DNA of 64,000 nt from a virus. Under the pieces are notes generated by a model. It saw only the letters and a list, made by a program, of their open reading frames with translations. It was not told where the DNA came from and searched no databases. The position numbers and the translations under genes are program-made. Shown one piece after another: positions 54,780 through 63,646 of this stretch. The first letter of the stretch is position 1. The number at the start of each line of letters is the position of its first letter. Location of the stretch: the IMG/VR virus record IMGVR_UViG_3300017770_000001, positions 62,001 to 126,000 of that record; one strand, 5' to 3'.

Positions 54780-54961
54780 TACCAACCTCCGTCAATTGTT
54801 TCCATTACTTCATTCATATGACCTAACAGTTGTGTGATAGGTTCATCGTAGTCACCAATTTCATAGTCAACGTCATCTTGTTCTTTAAACATTGCTTTTA
54901 TTTGGTCACCATACTGAACAACCTGTTCAAGTTGTTCTCTCATTTCATCTGATATAGCCAT
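54779..54961 (-). CDS. Small acidic protein
   Basis: 60 residues, strongly acidic (DEMREQLEQVVQYGDQIKAM, then DDVDYEIGDYDEP). Starts on the base where the upstream membrane gene ends. Acidic small phage proteins often act as DNA mimics or inhibitors, but there is no direct sign here. Confidence 0.55.
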   Translation of the reverse strand: MAISDEMREQLEQVVQYGDQIKAMFKEQDDVDYEIGDYDEPITQLLGHMNEVMETIDGGW

Positions 54962-55371
54962 TACGCTTCCTTATTAGGGTTCCAAATAGTTAGGTTCTTA
55001 GTCTTTAGTCTATTTAAAACTATGTTATACCTTGACTGTTCTTCCTTCCATTCCTTCAACCATTTGTGACCATCACGTTCTGCATCAACAAAGATTGCAT
55101 TGGTGAGTGCAAGAGGAACTAAGATTCCTACGTGAATAATGATACTTATTACTGTACTGTAGTTAAAGAATCCTAGGTAGTTTGCAGCTAGAAATCCAAA
55201 GAACACACTCCACATAGTAAACAATACTAACATAAAGTACGTCTGTAGACTAGGGTCGGGTATATACTTCAATGGGTTATACCTTACATCCATTACCCTT
55301 CTCCAACCACTTACAATGGTCATAACACTTCTTCTAAACAAACTAGGTTTTTTCATATTTGGTTTAATCAT
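54961..55371 (-). CDS. Two-TM membrane protein
   Basis: 136 residues from the ATG at 55371, chosen because GGAG lies 6 bases upstream (alternatives 55383, 55395). TM segments at TYFMLVLFTMWSVFFGFLAA and VISIIIHVGILVPLALTNAI; basic N-terminus, charged C-terminal helix (GHKWLKEWKEEQSRYNIVLN). No family recognised. Its start overlaps the end of a 33-residue hidden gene. Confidence 0.62.
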   Translation of the reverse strand: MIKPNMKKPSLFRRSVMTIVSGWRRVMDVRYNPLKYIPDPSLQTYFMLVLFTMWSVFFGFLAANYLGFFNYSTVISIIIHVGILVPLALTNAIFVDAERDGHKWLKEWKEEQSRYNIVLNRLKTKNLTIWNPNKEA

Positions 55372-55465
55372 CTCTTTCTCCATTAAATCTAACAAACTCT
55401 TTTATCACATGTATCCCAACTGATGCCCATGTAACCACTACTAAACTCCAAAACAACACTTCCAT
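55364..55465 (-). CDS. 33-residue single-TM microprotein
   Basis: ORF in the gap: MEVLFWSLVVVTWASVGIHV followed by IKEFVRFNGERDD. Its ATG shares bases with the upstream stop (TAATG) and its stop overlaps the next ATG. One TM helix with a short charged tail, similar in plan to the other microproteins of this region. Function unknown. Confidence 0.6.
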   Translation of the reverse strand: MEVLFWSLVVVTWASVGIHVIKEFVRFNGERDD

Positions 55466-55779
55466 TACAATAGAATGTTCTCCACGAAGTTACGTAACAA
55501 GAACAATAGACCCACACCATTCAGTATGATGAGAGCTCTGTCGTTCCATAGTATTGATACCCACAACCATAGTGCAATACCAATGATTGATAATGACAAG
55601 TCATATGTGACGAGTTCTTCGTTACCTCTCATACTCATTGCAATCATCACAAATACAGATGCAACCCATTTCACGTACCAGTCAAGTGTATACTTAGGTG
55701 TTGCACTCTTAAATATACGTGGACTTTCTAGTTCAGGTACTGCATCTATTTCTTTTTTTGTAAATTCGAGTTTACTCAT
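55465..55779 (-). CDS. Conserved phage membrane protein
   Basis: 104 residues. YTLDWYVKWVASVFVMIAMS, YDLSLSIIGIALWLWVSILW, NDRALIILNGVGLLFLL: two to three TM segments. The pattern YTLDW..K..AS....AMSxR and WNDRALI is one I recall from marine T4-like phages. Function unknown. Confidence 0.68.
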   Translation of the reverse strand: MSKLEFTKKEIDAVPELESPRIFKSATPKYTLDWYVKWVASVFVMIAMSMRGNEELVTYDLSLSIIGIALWLWVSILWNDRALIILNGVGLLFLLRNFVENILL

Positions 55780-56039
55780 GATTTCTTTATCTTATATTTG
55801 TCTTGTGTTGGTATCTTACGTGTCTCTAGTGTCTCTTTGATATAGTCCTTGAACATGTCTGCACCCTTAAAACGTGGGGGTGGATATAGTGTATCCTCAT
55901 TCTGCATAAAAAATAGACACATCATTGCAACATCTCTGAACTCTACTGCAACACCGTTGAATAGTAGTATCTTGTCATCAGTGTGTTTTCTACCTTGCAC
56001 CCACTGGAACTTGTCCCAATTCTTTATATCGTTACTCAT
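55776..56039 (-). CDS. Small unknown protein
   Basis: 87 residues from the ATG at 56039 (ATGA overlap with the sulfotransferase stop). MSNDIKNWDKFQWVQGRKHT, then ILLFNGVAVEFRDVAMMCLF. Directly downstream of sulfotransferase 2 and coupled to it. No family recognised. Confidence 0.6.
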   Translation of the reverse strand: MSNDIKNWDKFQWVQGRKHTDDKILLFNGVAVEFRDVAMMCLFFMQNEDTLYPPPRFKGADMFKDYIKETLETRKIPTQDKYKIKKS

Positions 56040-56734
56040 AGTGATATTGGTGTGTATCCTAACCACCTGAAATCATCATTGAAGTCTTCTGATATCATAT
56101 CATATTCTTCATGTGTTAGTCTATACTTTAGACGATTGGGTGTTACATTTTGTGCATCATCCATGTCAAATTCATAATGTGCAACACTTAACATCTTGTC
56201 TACTATCTCTTCCAACTGGAAAAATGCACAGTTTAGTTTCTCTCCATCTAGATGATAACAGAACTGCCATTGTGGTACACCATATTCAGTAGATAAGAAT
56301 CTCTTCCTATTGACTGCATATCCTTTGTCCCATCCCATTTGTGGTTGTTCTTTGTGTAATTTGTACAGTGATGACACTACTCTTTTGTATGGGTTTCTAA
56401 CAACACACATTTTCTGACACCCATCAACAAATGATAGAATCTCTTTAAAGAACTTTGGTTTGTTTTCTTTATACCAGTTGACTGGTTTACCATAACCGAA
56501 CTTTATAATCTCTGACTTCTTTGCCTGGTTATTGGTTTTACAGAATTCTTGGATACCATATAGTATTGTTTGAGTTCCACAACGTGGTGGTGATAGGAGA
56601 CACAACTCATCCCATCTATACGAGTTGATTCTACGTGGGTCTGTACCCCATTCAAACTGTTCAGAATTGAATTGTGGAAGATTAGCTATCTTCTCTTTCT
56701 CTTCGTCTGTATAGTTACGTCTTACGTAAAACAT
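56036..56734 (-). CDS. PAPS-dependent sulfotransferase 2
   Basis: 232 residues. PSB loop SPPRCGTQTILYGIQEF (PPRCGTQT at 49-56) and 3'-phosphate motif CVVRNPYKRVVSSLYKL (RNPYKR at 113-118). Distinct from sulfotransferase 1 in sequence, so not a recent duplicate; it probably acts on another acceptor or site. Overlaps the upstream nuclease gene by 20 bp. Confidence 0.8.
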   Translation of the reverse strand: MFYVRRNYTDEEKEKIANLPQFNSEQFEWGTDPRRINSYRWDELCLLSPPRCGTQTILYGIQEFCKTNNQAKKSEIIKFGYGKPVNWYKENKPKFFKEILSFVDGCQKMCVVRNPYKRVVSSLYKLHKEQPQMGWDKGYAVNRKRFLSTEYGVPQWQFCYHLDGEKLNCAFFQLEEIVDKMLSVAHYEFDMDDAQNVTPNRLKYRLTHEEYDMISEDFNDDFRWLGYTPISL

Positions 56735-57050: not shown

Positions 57051-57189
57051 AATATTTTACACTGCAATATGCATCACAAAACACTTTTATACTTCCATTC
57101 TGTATAGGAGTGTGATACTTTATTTCTTCACGGATGAGGGGGTTGTTACAAACGTAACACCTAATCGTCTCTTTGTTGGTCATTGTCAT
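57016..57189 (-). CDS. Small zinc-ribbon protein
   Basis: 57 residues from the ATG at 57189 (or 57183). CYVCNNPLIREEIKYHTPI, then FCDAYCSVKYYEDIK: four Cys in two pairs forming a ribbon. It overlaps the oxygenase gene upstream by 29 bp. The zinc ribbon suggests nucleic acid or protein binding; no specific function. Confidence 0.62.
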   Translation of the reverse strand: MTMTNKETIRCYVCNNPLIREEIKYHTPIQNGSIKVFCDAYCSVKYYEDIKCKSQRS

Positions 57190-57898
57190 TTTGTCTATCG
57201 TGGTATCGTCTCTCGGGATACAAGAAGTACACTTGACTATATCTCCAGTTGTTCTTATAATGTTCGTAATCGTCAATCACTGCACCATGCATTCTGTTAC
57301 CAGCAAAGATGACTGCACGATTGAACTTATGTTTGATTTTTCTAATGGTCTTATGACGAATCGGGTCAAACTCAAACATGAGATTCTCATGTTCTTTATT
57401 ATCGGGGAAGTTACCTTCATAGATATCTGTACCACCATTACCATCTCTGTCCATGAAAATAATCATGTTTAGAACTGATTGTTCATCGGGTGTTCTGATG
57501 TCGTCATCTAAGTGAGGGAAGTGTTGTACATTGTTTGGATATGACTTGAGTGTCCTAAAACAATTGAACTCGAACACTTGGTCAAAGTTGTAGTGTCCTT
57601 TCCAAAAGTGTCGTCTACAGGTATCTAGTATGTTACCCATGTAGTTCTCAGTATTCTGTTTCATACCATATGACCATGATACTATCAAACGACAATCATC
57701 GTAATCTTTACCATTACGTGTTTTGTCTGCATCAAAGAACTTCCACTTAGGGTAGTCTTGTTGTTGCAACCACTCATAGATTGCATCGGGGTCGTCATAG
57801 AAGTTATCTATGGTTATTGTCTTGTTTTCTCTATCCCAATCTATATCCCATTCGGGTGCAAATTGAAACAGTTTGTCTAGGTCTACTGGTTGTCTCAT
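57161..57898 (-). CDS. 2OG-Fe(II) oxygenase-like protein 3 (DUF6445-like)
   Basis: 245 residues. Metal site HFPHLDDD (His129, Asp131), distal His in GNRMHGAVIDDYEHY (His204) and a QVYFLYP ending. N-terminus TITIDNFYDDPDAIYEWLQQ is the usual opening of this group. It overlaps the next oxygenase gene by 4 bp, so two different 2OG-type enzymes are made from one message. Confidence 0.72.
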   Translation of the reverse strand: MRQPVDLDKLFQFAPEWDIDWDRENKTITIDNFYDDPDAIYEWLQQQDYPKWKFFDADKTRNGKDYDDCRLIVSWSYGMKQNTENYMGNILDTCRRHFWKGHYNFDQVFEFNCFRTLKSYPNNVQHFPHLDDDIRTPDEQSVLNMIIFMDRDGNGGTDIYEGNFPDNKEHENLMFEFDPIRHKTIRKIKHKFNRAVIFAGNRMHGAVIDDYEHYKNNWRYSQVYFLYPERRYHDRQNDNDQQRDD

Positions 57899-59007
57899 GA
57901 TTTCTTGTTTTTCTCCTCAAGTTCTTCATTATGTTCTGACATCAACTGTTCGTATGATTTGTCTGATTCGTTGATAGGTCTTGGATTATGGTGTGCTAAG
58001 TTAAATGATAATGATATACGTTCATAGTTATCACTGAAGTGTTCTTCTGATTGTCCCTCTACCCCATGATATAACCATGAAGGCCATAGTAAGAAATCCA
58101 TACATTTAGGATGGAAGTGTAACTCATGTGTAAAACCACCTGTACCAAGTAATGATGCTTTGTTAGATGGTAACTTAGAAGACTCAAATGATATTTCCTT
58201 GTCTCTATATTCCAACTCGTTCATCTTCATTGCCATCTGTGATTGTGGGTTGACAAATTTGATAGGCATGTCATTACCTTCATCTGACTTGATGTACCAA
58301 GTACCACTGATTGCAGAACCATTGTGTATATGATAGTGATGTTGATTTGAACCTTGATATCTATTGACCCATGCAAACAGATGAACGTGTTCAGTATCAT
58401 CGATGTAATCATCCCACACATGTTCCATGTATTCTCTATATGTCTGTTTGATGTTCATCTCAAAGTCTTTGAACCACTGTTTCTGATACATCATTGCACG
58501 TGCTTTCTTAGAGAAGTATGTGGTGTAACACTCATCTGCACGTGGATGTGTTTCTGCAACAACCTTAGTCAATTCTCTGATATCATTTATGATTTCTTCT
58601 CTATCAAGACCATCGATTACACCCTTAAACATAGGTGTTTCGAATATTGGAAACAACTCACCATGGTATGGTCTCTGTCCCTCTAGTATTGGAACAAACA
58701 TAGGGTCTTCACCTTGAGCTGCATGTGGTGGTTTTTCACCTAGAGGTTTAGGTCGGTTTTCTCTCATCTTCATGAGGTCGTCAACTGATGGACTAAGACC
58801 ATCTTCTGTGTCTGCTGGAATGTCGTGTTCGACATCTAAGGATTTGATAAGTTCTTGTCTCTTGTTTAGATATTCTCTGTCACCCTCCTCTACTAGAGGT
58901 GGATTTTCAACATCCATGAATGTTACAGAACGGTCGACATTTTCACGATTTACATCTTTGTCAAATACACGTTCTCGGTCATTTCCTTTTAGTTTTCTAG
59001 GTAACAT
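57895..59007 (-). CDS. 2OG-Fe(II) oxygenase-like protein 4 (TIGR02466-like)
   Basis: 370 residues. The C-terminal 250 follow the marine phage TIGR02466 pattern: LFPIFETPMFKGVIDG, SNQHHYHIHNGSAISGTWYI (metal His at 226-228), LWPSWLYHGVEGQSEE (distal His) and ERISLSFNLA (2OG Arg). The first 110 residues are a charged, disordered-looking extension rarely present in the family. Substrate unknown. It shares bases with the lipoprotein gene upstream. Confidence 0.75.
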   Translation of the reverse strand: MLPRKLKGNDRERVFDKDVNRENVDRSVTFMDVENPPLVEEGDREYLNKRQELIKSLDVEHDIPADTEDGLSPSVDDLMKMRENRPKPLGEKPPHAAQGEDPMFVPILEGQRPYHGELFPIFETPMFKGVIDGLDREEIINDIRELTKVVAETHPRADECYTTYFSKKARAMMYQKQWFKDFEMNIKQTYREYMEHVWDDYIDDTEHVHLFAWVNRYQGSNQHHYHIHNGSAISGTWYIKSDEGNDMPIKFVNPQSQMAMKMNELEYRDKEISFESSKLPSNKASLLGTGGFTHELHFHPKCMDFLLWPSWLYHGVEGQSEEHFSDNYERISLSFNLAHHNPRPINESDKSYEQLMSEHNEELEEKNKKS

Positions 59008-59489
59008 TATTTGGTTTCTTCCTCAATTTTCTTAGTTACATCTTCATAGTATACAACGACTTCACCCAGTTCTCTGATGTATCGTCTTAGTTCTTGCATG
59101 TTTGTTGACATGACTTTATAATCACCTACAGACGTTGCAACAAATACAATGTCTCCTTTGTTCTGTTCCTTCATAGTATCTAGGAACCTATCAAGGTAAG
59201 TGTAACCTTGAGGCCAATCGGGATTCTCTCTGTCTTCTTGTATACATTCCTTTGGTCTCTTCATAGAACCATCATCTTGTAGTCTCTTGATACAAGGGTT
59301 TACTATACGTGCCTCAGACACCACAAACCATTTAGGTGGTGTGAGTTGTAAAGGTCTTGGTAGTTCGGGTTGAATGATATCTATCTCTAATGGTTTAGAT
59401 ACAATCTCTACTTGTTTGGTTGGTAGTAGAGAACACCCTGTAAAGATACTAGTCGTTAGTATCAGAATTCCTAAGTTCTTTAGTGTCAT
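59007..59489 (-). CDS. Lipoprotein, outer-membrane spanin candidate
   Basis: 160 residues. Signal with lipobox: LGILILTTSIFTGCSLLPT (Cys19). Proline-rich segment EIDIIQPELPRPLQLTPPKW follows, typical of o-spanins, but the protein is longer than most Rz1-like ones. It overlaps the TM/coiled-coil gene upstream by 41 bp in a different frame, the usual Rz/Rz1 arrangement. The late promoter at 60048-60055 fits a lysis role. Confidence 0.68.
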   Translation of the reverse strand: MTLKNLGILILTTSIFTGCSLLPTKQVEIVSKPLEIDIIQPELPRPLQLTPPKWFVVSEARIVNPCIKRLQDDGSMKRPKECIQEDRENPDWPQGYTYLDRFLDTMKEQNKGDIVFVATSVGDYKVMSTNMQELRRYIRELGEVVVYYEDVTKKIEEETK

Positions 59490-59823
59490 TCTCTATCTCC
59501 TTAAATACTTCTGCAGTTCCATTATTAAATCGGGTTTCCATCAACCCTGGCTTCACTAATGCAAGTTTATCAAAGTTGTGTTTAGAGAATATCTCTAGAT
59601 ACCTAGCTTTGTCTGCCTCGATTTCGTTATTTCGTTTTTGTAAGTTACCTAATGCTTTACCCTGTCTCTCATATGATTCTTGTAGGGCAACCATGGTCTG
59701 TTTCTGTTCTTCGACTGCAGTTTCTAATTTATAGTTGTTTGCAGTGAGTGTTTGATTCTCATTATATAAGTACCATGAACCTAATCCTAGTACTAGTATA
59801 ATTGCAATGAAAAATTGATTCAT
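59449..59823 (-). CDS. TM plus coiled-coil protein, inner-membrane spanin candidate
   Basis: 124 residues. N-terminal anchor FFIAIILVLGLGSWYLYNE, then a periplasmic coiled coil (NNYKLETAVEEQKQTMVALQ, then RQGKALGNLQKRNNEIEADK). This is the i-spanin (Rz) plan. Overlap with the lipoprotein gene supports it. Placed after a small gene that has its own late promoter. Confidence 0.7.
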   Translation of the reverse strand: MNQFFIAIILVLGLGSWYLYNENQTLTANNYKLETAVEEQKQTMVALQESYERQGKALGNLQKRNNEIEADKARYLEIFSKHNFDKLALVKPGLMETRFNNGTAEVFKEIENDTKELRNSDTND

Positions 59824-60042
59824 TTATACGTCCTCTATGATATAGTTCAAACCCGATGATGACCTATATTCTATCACTTTGTTATTCTCATCTCTAAACT
59901 TGAGATGTTTCTCCTTTTGAATGAGAACCTTTTTTGTTATATAAGTTCTATCATCGTTATCTCCATACTCGGAATTAAACGATACTGTTATCTTATATCG
60001 GGTTGCAAAAAGACTCTTCACCCATATCCATAATTTATCCAT
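59824..60042 (-). CDS. Small protein, leaderless late gene
   Basis: 72 residues from the ATG at 60042 (MDKLWIWVKSLFATRYKITV). TATAAATA ends 5 bases before the ATG, so upstream in-frame codons would not be in the late mRNA. An amphipathic N-terminus with Trp residues then a beta-rich domain. It heads the putative spanin operon and could be a holin-associated or regulatory protein; unknown. Confidence 0.6.
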   Translation of the reverse strand: MDKLWIWVKSLFATRYKITVSFNSEYGDNDDRTYITKKVLIQKEKHLKFRDENNKVIEYRSSSGLNYIIEDV

Positions 60043-60047
60043 ATGAG

Positions 60048-60055
60048 TATTTATA
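60048..60055 (-). promoter_or_regulatory. T4-type late promoter for the spanin operon, leaderless
   Basis: The minus strand reads TATAAATA-CTCAT-ATG, predicted +1 on the start codon at 60042. It is the only late box found heading a gene in the accessory region and fits timed expression of lysis genes. Confidence 0.68.
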
Positions 60056-60566
60056 CTTCTTTTCTTAGGTCTTTTAGTTTGTCGATTGTTCTTTCTGCAG
60101 TGGTGTGAAGGATACCGATTCCTCCTGCTTTCTCCCATGCCTCGATGTTCTCTAGTCTATCATCAACAAGTACATAACCCTTGTTTGCAAATGCAGCTTT
60201 CTGTTTACCACCCATAGTGCAAGTAACTACCACACAAGGGTCAACATGTTTTCTAATCCACTCGTTCTTGTCATAGACAACTAGTTCTCTGTTGACCTTA
60301 CCAGCTGCAGTTAGTATCTCCCACGGTAATTCACAGTGTTTGACATATGCAATCAAGTCATACATGTCACTCATAGGTTCTAGTTTTGCAAACAGTCTTT
60401 TGTTTGTTAGTTCTTCCTTTCTTAGGTCGTACTCATTGTGACCATATGCATCATTAGTCAATGCATGACCAATCATCTCGGGTTTTGCAACTCCACTGAG
60501 GAAGTCTGCAAGTACTCCATCCATATCTAGAAAGATTCTTTTCACGTTTTTCATTTCTTTTTCCAT
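60051..60566 (-). CDS. HAD-like 5'-nucleotidase/phosphatase
   Basis: 171 residues from the ATG at 60566 (MEKEMKNVKR). HAD motif I is IFLDMDGVLADFL; motif IV VLVDDRLENIEAWEKAGG; ILTAAGK gives motif II (Thr). The 5'(3')-deoxyribonucleotidase family in T4-like phages looks like this. The ATG is exactly 7 bases after the -10 of the promoter at 60573-60602, so the message is predicted leaderless; an internal ATG at 60554 is an alternative. It may tune nucleotide pools alongside NrdB. Confidence 0.78.
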   Translation of the reverse strand: MEKEMKNVKRIFLDMDGVLADFLSGVAKPEMIGHALTNDAYGHNEYDLRKEELTNKRLFAKLEPMSDMYDLIAYVKHCELPWEILTAAGKVNRELVVYDKNEWIRKHVDPCVVVTCTMGGKQKAAFANKGYVLVDDRLENIEAWEKAGGIGILHTTAERTIDKLKDLRKEV

Positions 60567-60572
60567 ACTGTT

Positions 60573-60602
60573 ATAATAACAGAAAACACTACCCATTGTC
60601 AA
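60573..60602 (-). promoter_or_regulatory. Repeated early promoter (TTGACA-N18-TATTAT), leaderless
   Basis: Minus strand -35 TTGACA (60602-60597), -10 TATTAT (60578-60573), spacer 18, then AACAGT and ATG at predicted +1. It overlaps the end of the oxygenase gene upstream. Confidence 0.8.
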
Positions 60603-61200
60603 GTGGAATCTTGGTTATTTTACTTAGATTACACATGAATATCCACCTTGTTTCATCCGTATCATTACGATAAGAATGAAAGGGTCTTTCCCCGTCTATA
60701 CCCATCCAATAACCACAATTGACTGACCATGGGTCTTGTTGACCTCCTATACCTCTAGTCTTTTGTGGGTTCATCTCATCAAAAAATAGTGTTCCGTCAC
60801 CATCAGTAGGATGTAAGTATATAATAAGTGTATGTAGTTTTCTTGGAGTGTCTTGATGCACTCCATATCTGCAATGAGGTGGTGTTGTTTGTAACTCACC
60901 ATTAATTGTGTAGTGTGACTCACCCCTATCATGTTTGACCATGATACTTTCTTCATGGTTTTGAAAATAGTCTGTAGCGAAATCATGTGCAGACTGTATG
61001 ATAGGGTAACGTTCCTTATGGTATACACCTAACTGGTCACTACATGGTCTGTTTTGACCATCAATAATCTTAGTTAAGGGAACTGTCTTTAGTTGGTCGG
61101 GTTTGGGTGGGTTTTGAATAATCTCAAGTAAACCTTCTAGAATATCTTGTGGAAAAAAATTAGTTAAACGGATACCATATTCAAATCTTTCTTCTTTCAT
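60589..61200 (-). CDS. 2OG-Fe(II) oxygenase-like protein 5
   Basis: 203 residues. Metal pair RYGVHQDTPRKLHTLIIYL (His115, Asp117), then GTLFFDE, distal His in RPFHSYRND (His175) and 2OG Arg185 (DETRWIFMC). N-terminus IRLTNFFPQDILEGLLEII is standard. Starts inside the IscA stop region. Confidence 0.75.
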   Translation of the reverse strand: MKEERFEYGIRLTNFFPQDILEGLLEIIQNPPKPDQLKTVPLTKIIDGQNRPCSDQLGVYHKERYPIIQSAHDFATDYFQNHEESIMVKHDRGESHYTINGELQTTPPHCRYGVHQDTPRKLHTLIIYLHPTDGDGTLFFDEMNPQKTRGIGGQQDPWSVNCGYWMGIDGERPFHSYRNDTDETRWIFMCNLSKITKIPLDNG

Positions 61201-61505
61201 GACTTAAATTGTACACTGACACCACAACCACATGCAGACTGTTCATTTGGGTTTAGGAATTTAAAAAACTCGTTTAACCCTTCTTTGACGTAATCTAAAG
61301 TCATACCATTTAAGAATGGTCGACTGTTTTCGTCTATGACAAAGGAGAACTTACCGTAATCAATTACTTCATCCCCTTCTCTTAAGATGTCTTCTGCAAA
61401 GATATATTCATATCCAGCACAACCACCACCTGTCACACCAAGTCTGATTCTAGGAACATTACGTTCTACTAGTTTCTGAATTGCAGTGTCGGTGACTTCT
61501 ATCAT
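61197..61505 (-). CDS. IscA/ErpA-type Fe-S cluster carrier
   Basis: 102 residues, usual length for the A-type carriers. The three cluster ligands are present: GVTGGGCAGYEY (Cys29) and the C-terminal CGCG (Cys92, Cys94). Such genes are known in marine T4-like phages. It could support the phage radical SAM enzyme or maintain host Fe-S proteins. Its start overlaps the stop of the hidden zinc-ribbon gene. Confidence 0.92.
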   Translation of the reverse strand: MIEVTDTAIQKLVERNVPRIRLGVTGGGCAGYEYIFAEDILREGDEVIDYGKFSFVIDENSRPFLNGMTLDYVKEGLNEFFKFLNPNEQSACGCGVSVQFKS

Positions 61506-61651
61506 TTTTCTTCTATGTCATCGTCATGTAGTGTGTAACCACAGAAGATGCAAAACATTGGTTCATATTCTAATCCTTCCATGTTATGTTTAACTTGAAA
61601 TTGTCCTTCACACTCTGAACATACTATATCTAGATTTTGATTATCAGCCAT
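61502..61651 (-). CDS. 49-residue zinc-ribbon protein
   Basis: Reading the gap in frame gives MADNQNLDIVCSECEGQFQV then EYEPMFCIFCGYTLHDDD. The four Cys (11, 14, 34, 37) form a two-knuckle zinc ribbon. GGAG lies 7 bases before the ATG; its stop overlaps the IscA start (ATGA) and its start overlaps the upstream stop. Clear gene, likely a nucleic-acid or transcription accessory factor. Confidence 0.78.
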   Translation of the reverse strand: MADNQNLDIVCSECEGQFQVKHNMEGLEYEPMFCIFCGYTLHDDDIEEK

Positions 61652-61892
61652 TATCTATCTCCATATCTGGCAATACCATGGATACAAAATTGTCCCATGA
61701 TTTGGGTTTACCGTCAATTAACATGACGGGTAGTTCTTTTCTGTTATATTTCTTTAACACATCCTGTGCAAGTCTAAAGTCTTCACCTAAACGATACACT
61801 CGGACTTCATGTTCCGATATGTCTAGTGTCTTTGTCAAGTGTTCTGACCTCATGGACATTGCACTATCATCTACGTAAAGTAATACTTGCAT
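61644..61892 (-). CDS. Thioredoxin-fold-like small protein without CxxC
   Basis: 82 residues. VLLYVDDSAMSMRSEHLTKT, then ELPVMLIDGKPKSWDNFVSM resembles the cis-Pro half of a glutaredoxin-like fold, but no catalytic Cys is present. Coupled to the membrane protein upstream and the zinc ribbon downstream. The fold guess is weak. Confidence 0.55.
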   Translation of the reverse strand: MQVLLYVDDSAMSMRSEHLTKTLDISEHEVRVYRLGEDFRLAQDVLKKYNRKELPVMLIDGKPKSWDNFVSMVLPDMEIDNG

Positions 61893-62101
61893 TAGAATTT
61901 AAAAGCTAGTAGTAAAAAAATACCAAATAAAAATAAGTTTGTAAATAGTAATAACAATCCTAAGATAGTGTGATACCACACCCATCTTGTCCTATATGCA
62001 TTATCTATCGTGAGTTCTTCGGGGTCTGCATCGGGATTCTCTTCGATGTGTTTCTTTACTATGTCTTCTTCTTTACCCCAAAAAATGTCATACCATGTCA
62101 T
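61892..62101 (-). CDS. Small two-helix membrane protein
   Basis: 69 residues. Charged N-terminal half (WGKEEDIVKKHIEENPDADP), then WYHTILGLLLLFTNLFLFGI and FLLLAFKF, one long or two short TM segments. Stands between cytochrome c and the thioredoxin-like gene; whether it helps anchor or handle the cytochrome is a guess. Confidence 0.6.
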   Translation of the reverse strand: MTWYDIFWGKEEDIVKKHIEENPDADPEELTIDNAYRTRWVWYHTILGLLLLFTNLFLFGIFLLLAFKF

Positions 62102-62114
62102 ACTATTCTCCTTA

Positions 62115-62552
62115 TCAGTCGTTCAAGGTTTCTCCTATGAACCTACCAATAGTGTCAATTTCTTCTTCTGATAACATAGCTGCCTGGGCCCACATTGTGG
62201 AACTCATTGCACCTACGGTACCCCTGTTCTTATAAGTCGTCAATCTATCTACTATGTAATCAGATGACCGACCTGCAAGTTTTGGAAAGACTGCCATACC
62301 TTGTCCCTCCATTCCATGACAAGCTGCACAACCTGCCCATAAACTTCTGATAGAACTAAATTCATCTGCAGATGCAAGTTCTTGTTTTGCACGTTCTATC
62401 TCTGATGGTGTACCGTATATAGAAACATACTCTTCATAACATTCTCCTGTACATGAAGTGTTTCGTGGGTAACCACTGTATTCTAGGTTGTTGTATGCTA
62501 ATGCAATAGTCCCAACCATCATTAAACAAATACTAAATATATATCCTTTCAT
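62115..62552 (-). CDS. Secreted class I cytochrome c
   Basis: 145 residues. Signal peptide MKGYIFSICLMMVGTIALA, cleavage near residue 19. Haem site WAGCAACHGMEGQG (Cys75, Cys78, His79), then FPKLAGRSSDYIVDRLTTYK and AMSSTMWAQAAMLSEEEIDT with the probable Met axial ligand at 116 or 120: the c553/c5-like pattern. A CTGEC pair at 34-38 lies in an N-terminal extension. It acts in the periplasm and needs host Ccm haem attachment. It could carry electrons to a terminal oxidase during infection. The start overlaps the nrdB stop. Confidence 0.88.
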   Translation of the reverse strand: MKGYIFSICLMMVGTIALAYNNLEYSGYPRNTSCTGECYEEYVSIYGTPSEIERAKQELASADEFSSIRSLWAGCAACHGMEGQGMAVFPKLAGRSSDYIVDRLTTYKNRGTVGAMSSTMWAQAAMLSEEEIDTIGRFIGETLND

Positions 62553-63646
62553 AGTGTAAAGTCCTTAAATGTGTCATCACTGACATCTCGTTTTATTCCA
62601 CCAATTACATAAGACTCAATCTCTGTCTCTTGTGGTGCATTCTGTAATGATTTACTTCTCAACCAGTGTTCTGTCCATGGTAGTGGATTAGTTGTTGCTG
62701 GTATATCATATATAGGTTTTAAACCTATTCCCTTAAGTCTTCTATTTGCAATCCACTCTACGTATTTACCTAACAATGGTGCAGATAGACCAATCATACT
62801 TCCCTTCTCGAATAAGAACTCTGCCCACTCTTTCTCTTGGTCGACTGCATCTCTGAACATTTTATACACTTCTTCTTCAGTGTCTTTTATGACCTTAGTC
62901 ATAATCTTGTCGTTCTCATGTTTCTGCCAGTTCTTGATGATGTGTGTAGACACTGCAAGATGTTGTGCTTCATCCCTTGCAATGAATGATATAATCTTTG
63001 CACTCCCTTCCATTAGTTTGAGTTCACCGAATCCAAATGTACATGCAAACGACACATAGAATCTGATACCCTCTAAGATGTTCACTGACATCATTGCAAG
63101 GTACAATGCTTTGTATAACTCATACTCATCTACTTTAAGACCTAGTAATTTACGTCTACCAATCTCGATAAACTTGTCATATCTTTCTGTAACTGCCTCT
63201 GCACGTTTTAGGATAGCAGGTTCATCTACGATAGTGTCAAATACTTCACTTGGATTTGCATATAGATTCTTTACCATGTGAGTGTAAGAACGTGAATGGA
63301 TAGTTTCCATAAAGTCCCATGTCACCATTGCACCCTCCAACTCGGGAAGTGTAACAAATGGTAAGAATGCAATAGCAGGGCCTCTACCCTGTACTGAATC
63401 TAGTAATGTTTGATATCTTAAGTTTGATGTAAAGATATGTTTCTGTGCTTCATTTAGTGATTGAAAGTCATTTCTATCTTTCTGTAGAGACACCTCTTCG
63501 GGTCTCCAAAAGTATCCTAACTGTGTTTGTGTTAGTTTATCAAATACTGGATATTTGAACTCGTCAAATCTTTGTGTGTTCAATGGTTCACCAAAGAACA
63601 TCTTCTCCTTTGTGAAGTCTACCTTATTTCTGTTGAATATTGTCAA
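62549..63646 (-). CDS. nrdB: Class Ia ribonucleotide reductase small subunit
   Basis: 365 residues. All di-iron ligands are in place: Asp83 (TLLDSVQ), Glu114 and His117 (FMETIHSRSYTHM), Glu192 (ILEGIRF), Glu226 and His229 (ARDEAQHL), plus radical Tyr121. It makes dNTPs with NrdA, which must lie outside the window. Glutaredoxin (42647-42889) is the likely reductant. It overlaps the oxygenase at the window edge by 23 bp. Confidence 0.95.
   Translation of the reverse strand: MTIFNRNKVDFTKEKMFFGEPLNTQRFDEFKYPVFDKLTQTQLGYFWRPEEVSLQKDRNDFQSLNEAQKHIFTSNLRYQTLLDSVQGRGPAIAFLPFVTLPELEGAMVTWDFMETIHSRSYTHMVKNLYANPSEVFDTIVDEPAILKRAEAVTERYDKFIEIGRRKLLGLKVDEYELYKALYLAMMSVNILEGIRFYVSFACTFGFGELKLMEGSAKIISFIARDEAQHLAVSTHIIKNWQKHENDKIMTKVIKDTEEEVYKMFRDAVDQEKEWAEFLFEKGSMIGLSAPLLGKYVEWIANRRLKGIGLKPIYDIPATTNPLPWTEHWLRSKSLQNAPQETEIESYVIGGIKRDVSDDTFKDFTL

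Follow-up and report, generated by a model that had tools for sequence, protein, structure and literature searches.

In the 64,000-nucleotide stretch of viral DNA analysed here (the window), which belongs to a 135-kb virus record, an open reading frame (ORF) on the minus strand encodes a protein that, by profile, CxxCH motif, downstream Met and modelled fold, is a single-haem class I cytochrome c, with haem loading and His/Met ligation predicted. The gene represents a conserved phage family of single origin and is not a host fragment. No description of this family was found in the open-access literature, where absence is not proof, and it apparently had not been described before. The function that we infer for it, a membrane-tethered electron carrier that would keep host respiration running as a heterotroph counterpart of the petE and PTOX cassette of cyanophages, has in our estimation about an even chance of being correct.

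Protein features, family and origin

The cytochrome gene and its parts are as follows:
62115..62552, minus strand: class I cytochrome c, membrane-anchored or exported (predicted), 145 aa (Pfam Cytochrom_C, 493 viral relatives, AF2, VIA-align)
62484..62546, minus strand: N-terminal hydrophobic helix, residues 3-23, signal peptide or anchor (AF2 helix; ALA|Y in the window copy)
62439..62453, minus strand: CxGxC motif (CTGEC), residues 34-38 (invariant in the phage family, 82 sequences)
62118..62363, minus strand: haem-binding cytochrome c domain (predicted), residues 64-145 (profile and structure matches)
62316..62330, minus strand: CAACH haem attachment site, residues 75-79 (sequence, 82-sequence alignment)
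62193..62195, minus strand: Met120, predicted axial haem ligand (invariant in 82 sequences)

The ORF, which is real, starts with the ATG at 62552 and ends at 62115; the sequence-only reading, which had proposed a phage-carried periplasmic cytochrome c, gave no strand for it. The product matches Pfam Cytochrom_C (PF00034) with an E value of 7.7e-7 and 30.8 bits (curated cut-off 21.3), and the same domain is matched by all 43 members of profile set A1 at E <= 0.01. In an alignment of 82 sequences, C34, G36, C38, Y39, C75, H79 and M120 are invariant and the CAACH site, already recognized by that reading, is kept in all sequences but one. The exception, a relative at L198:1497-1931, has CAASH (C78S) and might be a single-thioether variant, a non-functional variant or a sequencing error. 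Since Met116 is replaced by Gln in 6 of the 82 sequences, the invariant Met120 is the likely axial ligand, and it lines up with a Met in cytochromes c4, c546/556 and c554; a missing axial Met had been named beforehand as speaking against the assignment.

The quality of the AF2 model rose with alignment depth, from a pLDDT of 67 with 43 sequences to 83.6 with 82. Comparison of residues 64-144 of the model with known structures (VIA-align) gave matches to 8yts (cytochrome c546/556; Z 14.3, rmsd 1.4 A over 81 residues), to c552 (Z 12.9), to c554 (Z 12.6) and to cytochrome c4 as a subunit in the bc1-cbb3 supercomplex (Z 11.8). The earlier description of the C-terminus as c553-like was right in kind, the best structure and profile matches being to the group of c546/556, c552, c554, c553 and c4. 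A search of the BFVD viral structures gave no match to the cytochrome, which is an absence only. Membership in cytochrome c4 was rejected, as the phage protein has one CxxCH in 145 aa and c4 two haem domains per chain, and identity with the cbb3 oxidase subunit CcoP (TIGR00782) was rejected at 18.5 bits versus a curated cut-off of 179.95.

An N-terminal membrane segment and the CxGxC motif are present in 82 of 82 phage proteins. The signal peptide seen by the sequence-only reading holds for the window copy insofar as its hydrophobic N-terminus ends in ALA|Y, but an AxA-like cleavage site occurs in just 17 of 78 relatives, the window copy among them, and most family members are therefore probably anchored by the N-terminal helix instead of being soluble, as predicted from sequence. 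The invariant CxGxC had been missed, as had the recurring alternative oxidase (AOX) and small membrane-protein neighbours described below, and no CxGxC region turned up in the homologues examined from a sample of about 1,060 cellular genomes. In the membrane-anchored cytochrome cy (CycM), the haem domain is tethered to the membrane through an uncleaved N-terminal helix and a long flexible linker. The phage protein likewise has one haem domain, and its predicted N-terminal helix may stay uncleaved, but it is set apart, by description, by a short two-helix CxGxC region and the lack of a long flexible linker.

Relatives of the cytochrome were detected in 493 viral contigs using a profile built from 43 sequences, and pairwise dN/dS had a median of 0.18 with synonymous sites partly saturated, indicating purifying selection. 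A chance ORF is excluded because of these viral relatives, the invariant haem residues and the low dN/dS. A host fragment or a misassembly, the former having been raised beforehand as a fragment of a larger host enzyme, was rejected, as the gene stands alone and sits amid T4-like genes in many contigs. The cytochrome gene was found in none of the cultured phages among 50,697 records, and a profile check of Melnitz and C48C1 detected none either; the only GenBank phage match (MW202476, E 1e-3) was discarded because it lies antisense to annotated genes. Three close matches in bacterial metagenome-assembled genomes (MAGs) are flanked by phage genes (nrdA, nrdB and others) and are read as phage DNA in MAGs because the surrounding stretches consist of phage genes. 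Cytochrome-bearing phage contigs (L082, L083 and L084) were apparently binned into MAGs labelled Synechococcus, Sphingobacteriales and Planctomycetaceae.

Among the 80 domains of a tree, the 25 from phages formed one clade (99/96) within the proteobacterial monohaem cytochromes, although the tree rests on only 83 columns and does not fix the sister group. Cellular genomes were scanned from about 400 Pseudomonadota, 300 genomes from the order of a small genome that bears a rhodopsin gene and is SAR11-like in size and GC and 370 genomes of the class of one further genome (G318), presumably Gammaproteobacteria; matches were confined to the haem domain (best E about 1e-21), and no close relative of the phage cytochrome was present in the sampled SAR11-like genomes. 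The closest cellular kin among those sampled were proteobacterial c4/c552/c554-type cytochromes. With c4, c552, c554 and c546/556 (PF00034) the phage protein has 26-32% identity over about 80 residues, with best Z scores of 11.8-14.3, and has in common the CxxCH, the helix order, the downstream Met and an FPKLAGQ-type motif, whereas it differs from them as a monohaem protein with an N-terminal membrane helix, a CxGxC module and a clade of its own. Carriage in phage genomes, the presence of cellular relatives and purifying selection are the features of an auxiliary metabolic gene.

Gene neighbourhood

Genes of the window that bear on the neighbourhood of the cytochrome are as follows:
62549..63646, minus strand: nrdB, class Ia ribonucleotide reductase small subunit (Pfam E 8e-56; phrog_86 E 2.9e-153)
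61892..62101, minus strand: TM69, 69-aa single-span membrane protein, downstream of the cytochrome (its family adjoins p144 in other phages)
61644..61892, minus strand: thioredoxin/glutaredoxin-like protein, 82 aa, family f36 (weak phrog_22 thioredoxin match, E 0.083)
54961..55395, minus strand: p144, two-span membrane protein (start ATG 55356 likelier than the listed TTG)

In the window, the end of nrdB (62549) and the start of the cytochrome (62552) overlap by 4 bp, the 82-aa thioredoxin/glutaredoxin-like protein occupies a slot where relatives often have glutaredoxin, and p144 lies 7 kb downstream of the cytochrome. Neighbours were counted in 62 dereplicated loci, and enrichment was assessed against random placement within the locus in 5,000 shuffles. 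The immediate neighbours of the cytochrome were glutaredoxin (24 loci), f9TM, a single-span protein (16), nrdB (14) and p144 (11), many of these pairs with 4-bp overlaps. Among lineages with both genes in the locus, glutaredoxin was adjacent in 24 of 33, f9TM in 16 of 23 and nrdB in 14 of 41 (within two genes in 29 of 41), and in 11 of 17 distinct lineages p144 immediately preceded the cytochrome; for p144 and f9TM this occurred in many flanking contexts. None of the 5,000 shuffles reached these adjacencies for any of the four genes, P values that are optimistic as lineages share descent. No enrichment beside the cytochrome was seen for o-spanin (0 of 27 lineages) or RNase H (0 of 28). The coupling to nrdB claimed by the sequence-only reading is thus true of the window, but only 14 of the 62 dereplicated relatives have nrdB right next to the cytochrome and the link is lineage-specific. 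In many relatives the cytochrome gene has another setting, among gp46 or peroxiredoxin, gp47, spanins or UvsW, and peroxiredoxin is among its neighbours in some. The p144 protein keeps His88, NPL and MWS invariant, gave no match to a Pfam, PHROG or PDB family, and has distant relatives in Melnitz and C48C1, both without the cytochrome.

AOX, identified by Pfam with an E value of 1.6e-66, is present in at least 205 marine viral contigs. Of 14 distinct lineages with both genes in the locus, 6 have it next to the cytochrome, where 1.3 are expected (P 0.0006, optimistic given shared descent), with either gene first and across seven flanking contexts. AOX also stands beside p144 or f9TM without the cytochrome, with links that are weak or not significant (P 0.05 for p144, P 0.30 for f9TM). 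AOX is missing from the record of the window phage, and no cyanophage record matches AOX at a tblastn E value of 1e-5. Examples of AOX are found at L047:5432-5995, in L214-L293 and in the GenBank phage C48C1 (OQ984149, 26249-26818), where it is annotated as hypothetical.

Proposed function and alternatives

According to the proposed function, the cytochrome would be exported through the inner membrane, mostly staying tethered by its N-terminal helix, and its haem would be attached by the Ccm machinery of the host. It would then carry electrons along the periplasmic side of the membrane, most probably from the host cytochrome bc1 to the host cytochrome c oxidase, such that respiration and ATP supply could continue while host proteins are replaced. 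In relatives, phage AOX would drain the quinol pool directly, and a phage with both genes could keep electrons leaving the quinol pool by either exit. Of the two roles suggested by the sequence-only reading, sustaining electron flow to a terminal oxidase has the best support, given the c4/c552/c554-type haem domain, the membrane tether and the AOX adjacency. By sequence and model, a haem domain of this group on a membrane tether would suit bc1-to-oxidase transfer, and cytochrome c4 is a subunit of the Pseudomonas bc1-cbb3 supercomplex (8smr, among the structure matches). Topology, redox partners and benefit to the phage are all presumed here. Counting against a shuttle, CxGxC is not known from cytochromes of that kind and may indicate a different task. 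AOX oxidises quinol directly, bypassing cytochrome c, and the two genes are therefore not consecutive steps of one pathway. Also, the window phage lacks AOX in its record and the SAR11-like genomes sampled lack a close relative of the cytochrome.

Alternatively, the cytochrome might contribute the haem to a redox complex in the inner membrane, specific to these phages and formed with p144 and f9TM or TM69, in which CxGxC would serve for docking or as a second redox site and electrons would pass from quinol or another donor to an oxidase. The frequent p144 and f9TM adjacencies, many with 4-bp overlaps, the invariant residues of p144 and the occurrence of AOX beside p144 or f9TM even without the cytochrome are consistent with such a complex, but the AOX links to these proteins are statistically poor, p144 lies 7 kb away in the window phage and matches no known family or structure, and Melnitz and C48C1 have p144-like proteins without the cytochrome, so that we regard it as rather unlikely. 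A wider version, also judged improbable, would see a mobile respiratory set (CxGxC cytochrome c, AOX, p144, f9TM or TM69) in hundreds of marine T4-like heterotroph phages, forming a phage-specific electron-transport branch that includes a membrane redox complex without cellular counterpart. The strict conservation of C34, G36, C38 and Y39, equal to that of the haem site, and the glutaredoxin and, in some relatives, peroxiredoxin neighbours would fit a thiol-redox or metal role, in which the two CxGxC cysteines would form and break a disulfide, or hold a metal (copper, for instance), and exchange electrons with the haem, perhaps to defend the periplasm against oxidants or to help assemble an oxidase. 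This is quite unlikely, as CxGxC may be no more than a structural disulfide, the His or Met needed for a copper motif is absent, and both glutaredoxin and peroxiredoxin work in the cytoplasm.

Redox supply for nucleotide synthesis, the other role suggested earlier, would have the cytochrome feed electrons to NrdAB or glutaredoxin, and it fits the gene order only: nrdB, cytochrome and glutaredoxin follow each other in many lineages, and 4-bp overlaps occur at both junctions, and both partners are frequent neighbours. However, c-type cytochromes receive their haem and function in the periplasm, on the other side of the membrane from ribonucleotide reductase and glutaredoxin, which makes electron supply to NrdAB improbable, and in many relatives the gene lies away from nrdB; we give this role very little credence, and the position in an nrdB operon more likely reflects expression timing. 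Energised membranes matter in holin timing and an i-spanin gene abuts the cytochrome in 3 of 62 lineages, as might be expected if the cytochrome helped to hold the proton-motive force until lysis and thereby set when lysis occurs, but with o-spanin adjacent in 0 of 27 lineages this is very unlikely. That the gene is a functionless passenger recently acquired from a host, class I cytochromes being common in proteobacteria, is scarcely credible and already contradicted by the one deep phage clade, the low dN/dS, the 493 contigs and the phage-specific N-terminal module.

What is known of how phages control the energy metabolism of their hosts comes mainly from cyanophages. The tethered-carrier function, proposed for a cytochrome present in hundreds of ocean phage contigs, suggests that many phages of non-photosynthetic bacteria re-equip host respiration during infection; if true, such phages also rebuild respiration, and respiration and oxygen use in infected cells become testable through two named genes, the cytochrome and AOX. 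Cyanophages carry petE (plastocyanin) and PTOX as a hypothesised mobile cassette (PMC3037559). In both cases T4-like marine phages encode a small electron carrier together with a di-iron quinol oxidase, whereas here the carrier is a haem and not a copper protein, AOX has no cyanophage match at the above threshold and the hosts are apparently non-photosynthetic. Virome reads of cbb3 oxidase (PMC3474794) and phage SoxD (PMC8190135, where two SoxD highlighted lack haem motifs) are cytochrome c-related viral genes too, but they encode enzyme subunits and not a conserved family of free cytochromes. Phage AlaS is thought to support respiration (PMC11480375).

Other genes of the window

The window phage is a marine phage with T4-like baseplate proteins, and by gp6 its closest cultured phages are the Methylophilales phage Melnitz (41%) and the Pelagibacter phages Mosig and HTVC008M (39-40%). 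The PHROG label 'ferrochelatase' for the gene upstream of nrdB was not used, as a full-length relative has no Pfam match. A run of genes at 57161-61200 includes a 2OG-Fe(II) oxygenase-like gene by Pfam (57895-59007) and two by appearance (57161-57898 and 60589-61200), and an IscA-like Fe-S protein (61197-61505) belongs to the same run. A spanin-like pair lies at 59007-59823, where a lipoprotein-like ORF (59007-59489) overlaps a membrane coiled-coil ORF (59449-59823). Beside p144, a small membrane protein (55465-55779) matches DUF6552 with an E value of 4.6e-18. The ORF at 56036-56734 is sulfotransferase-like in appearance only, and a sulfotransferase-like protein at 49480-50094 matches PF03567 with an E value of 1.3e-7.
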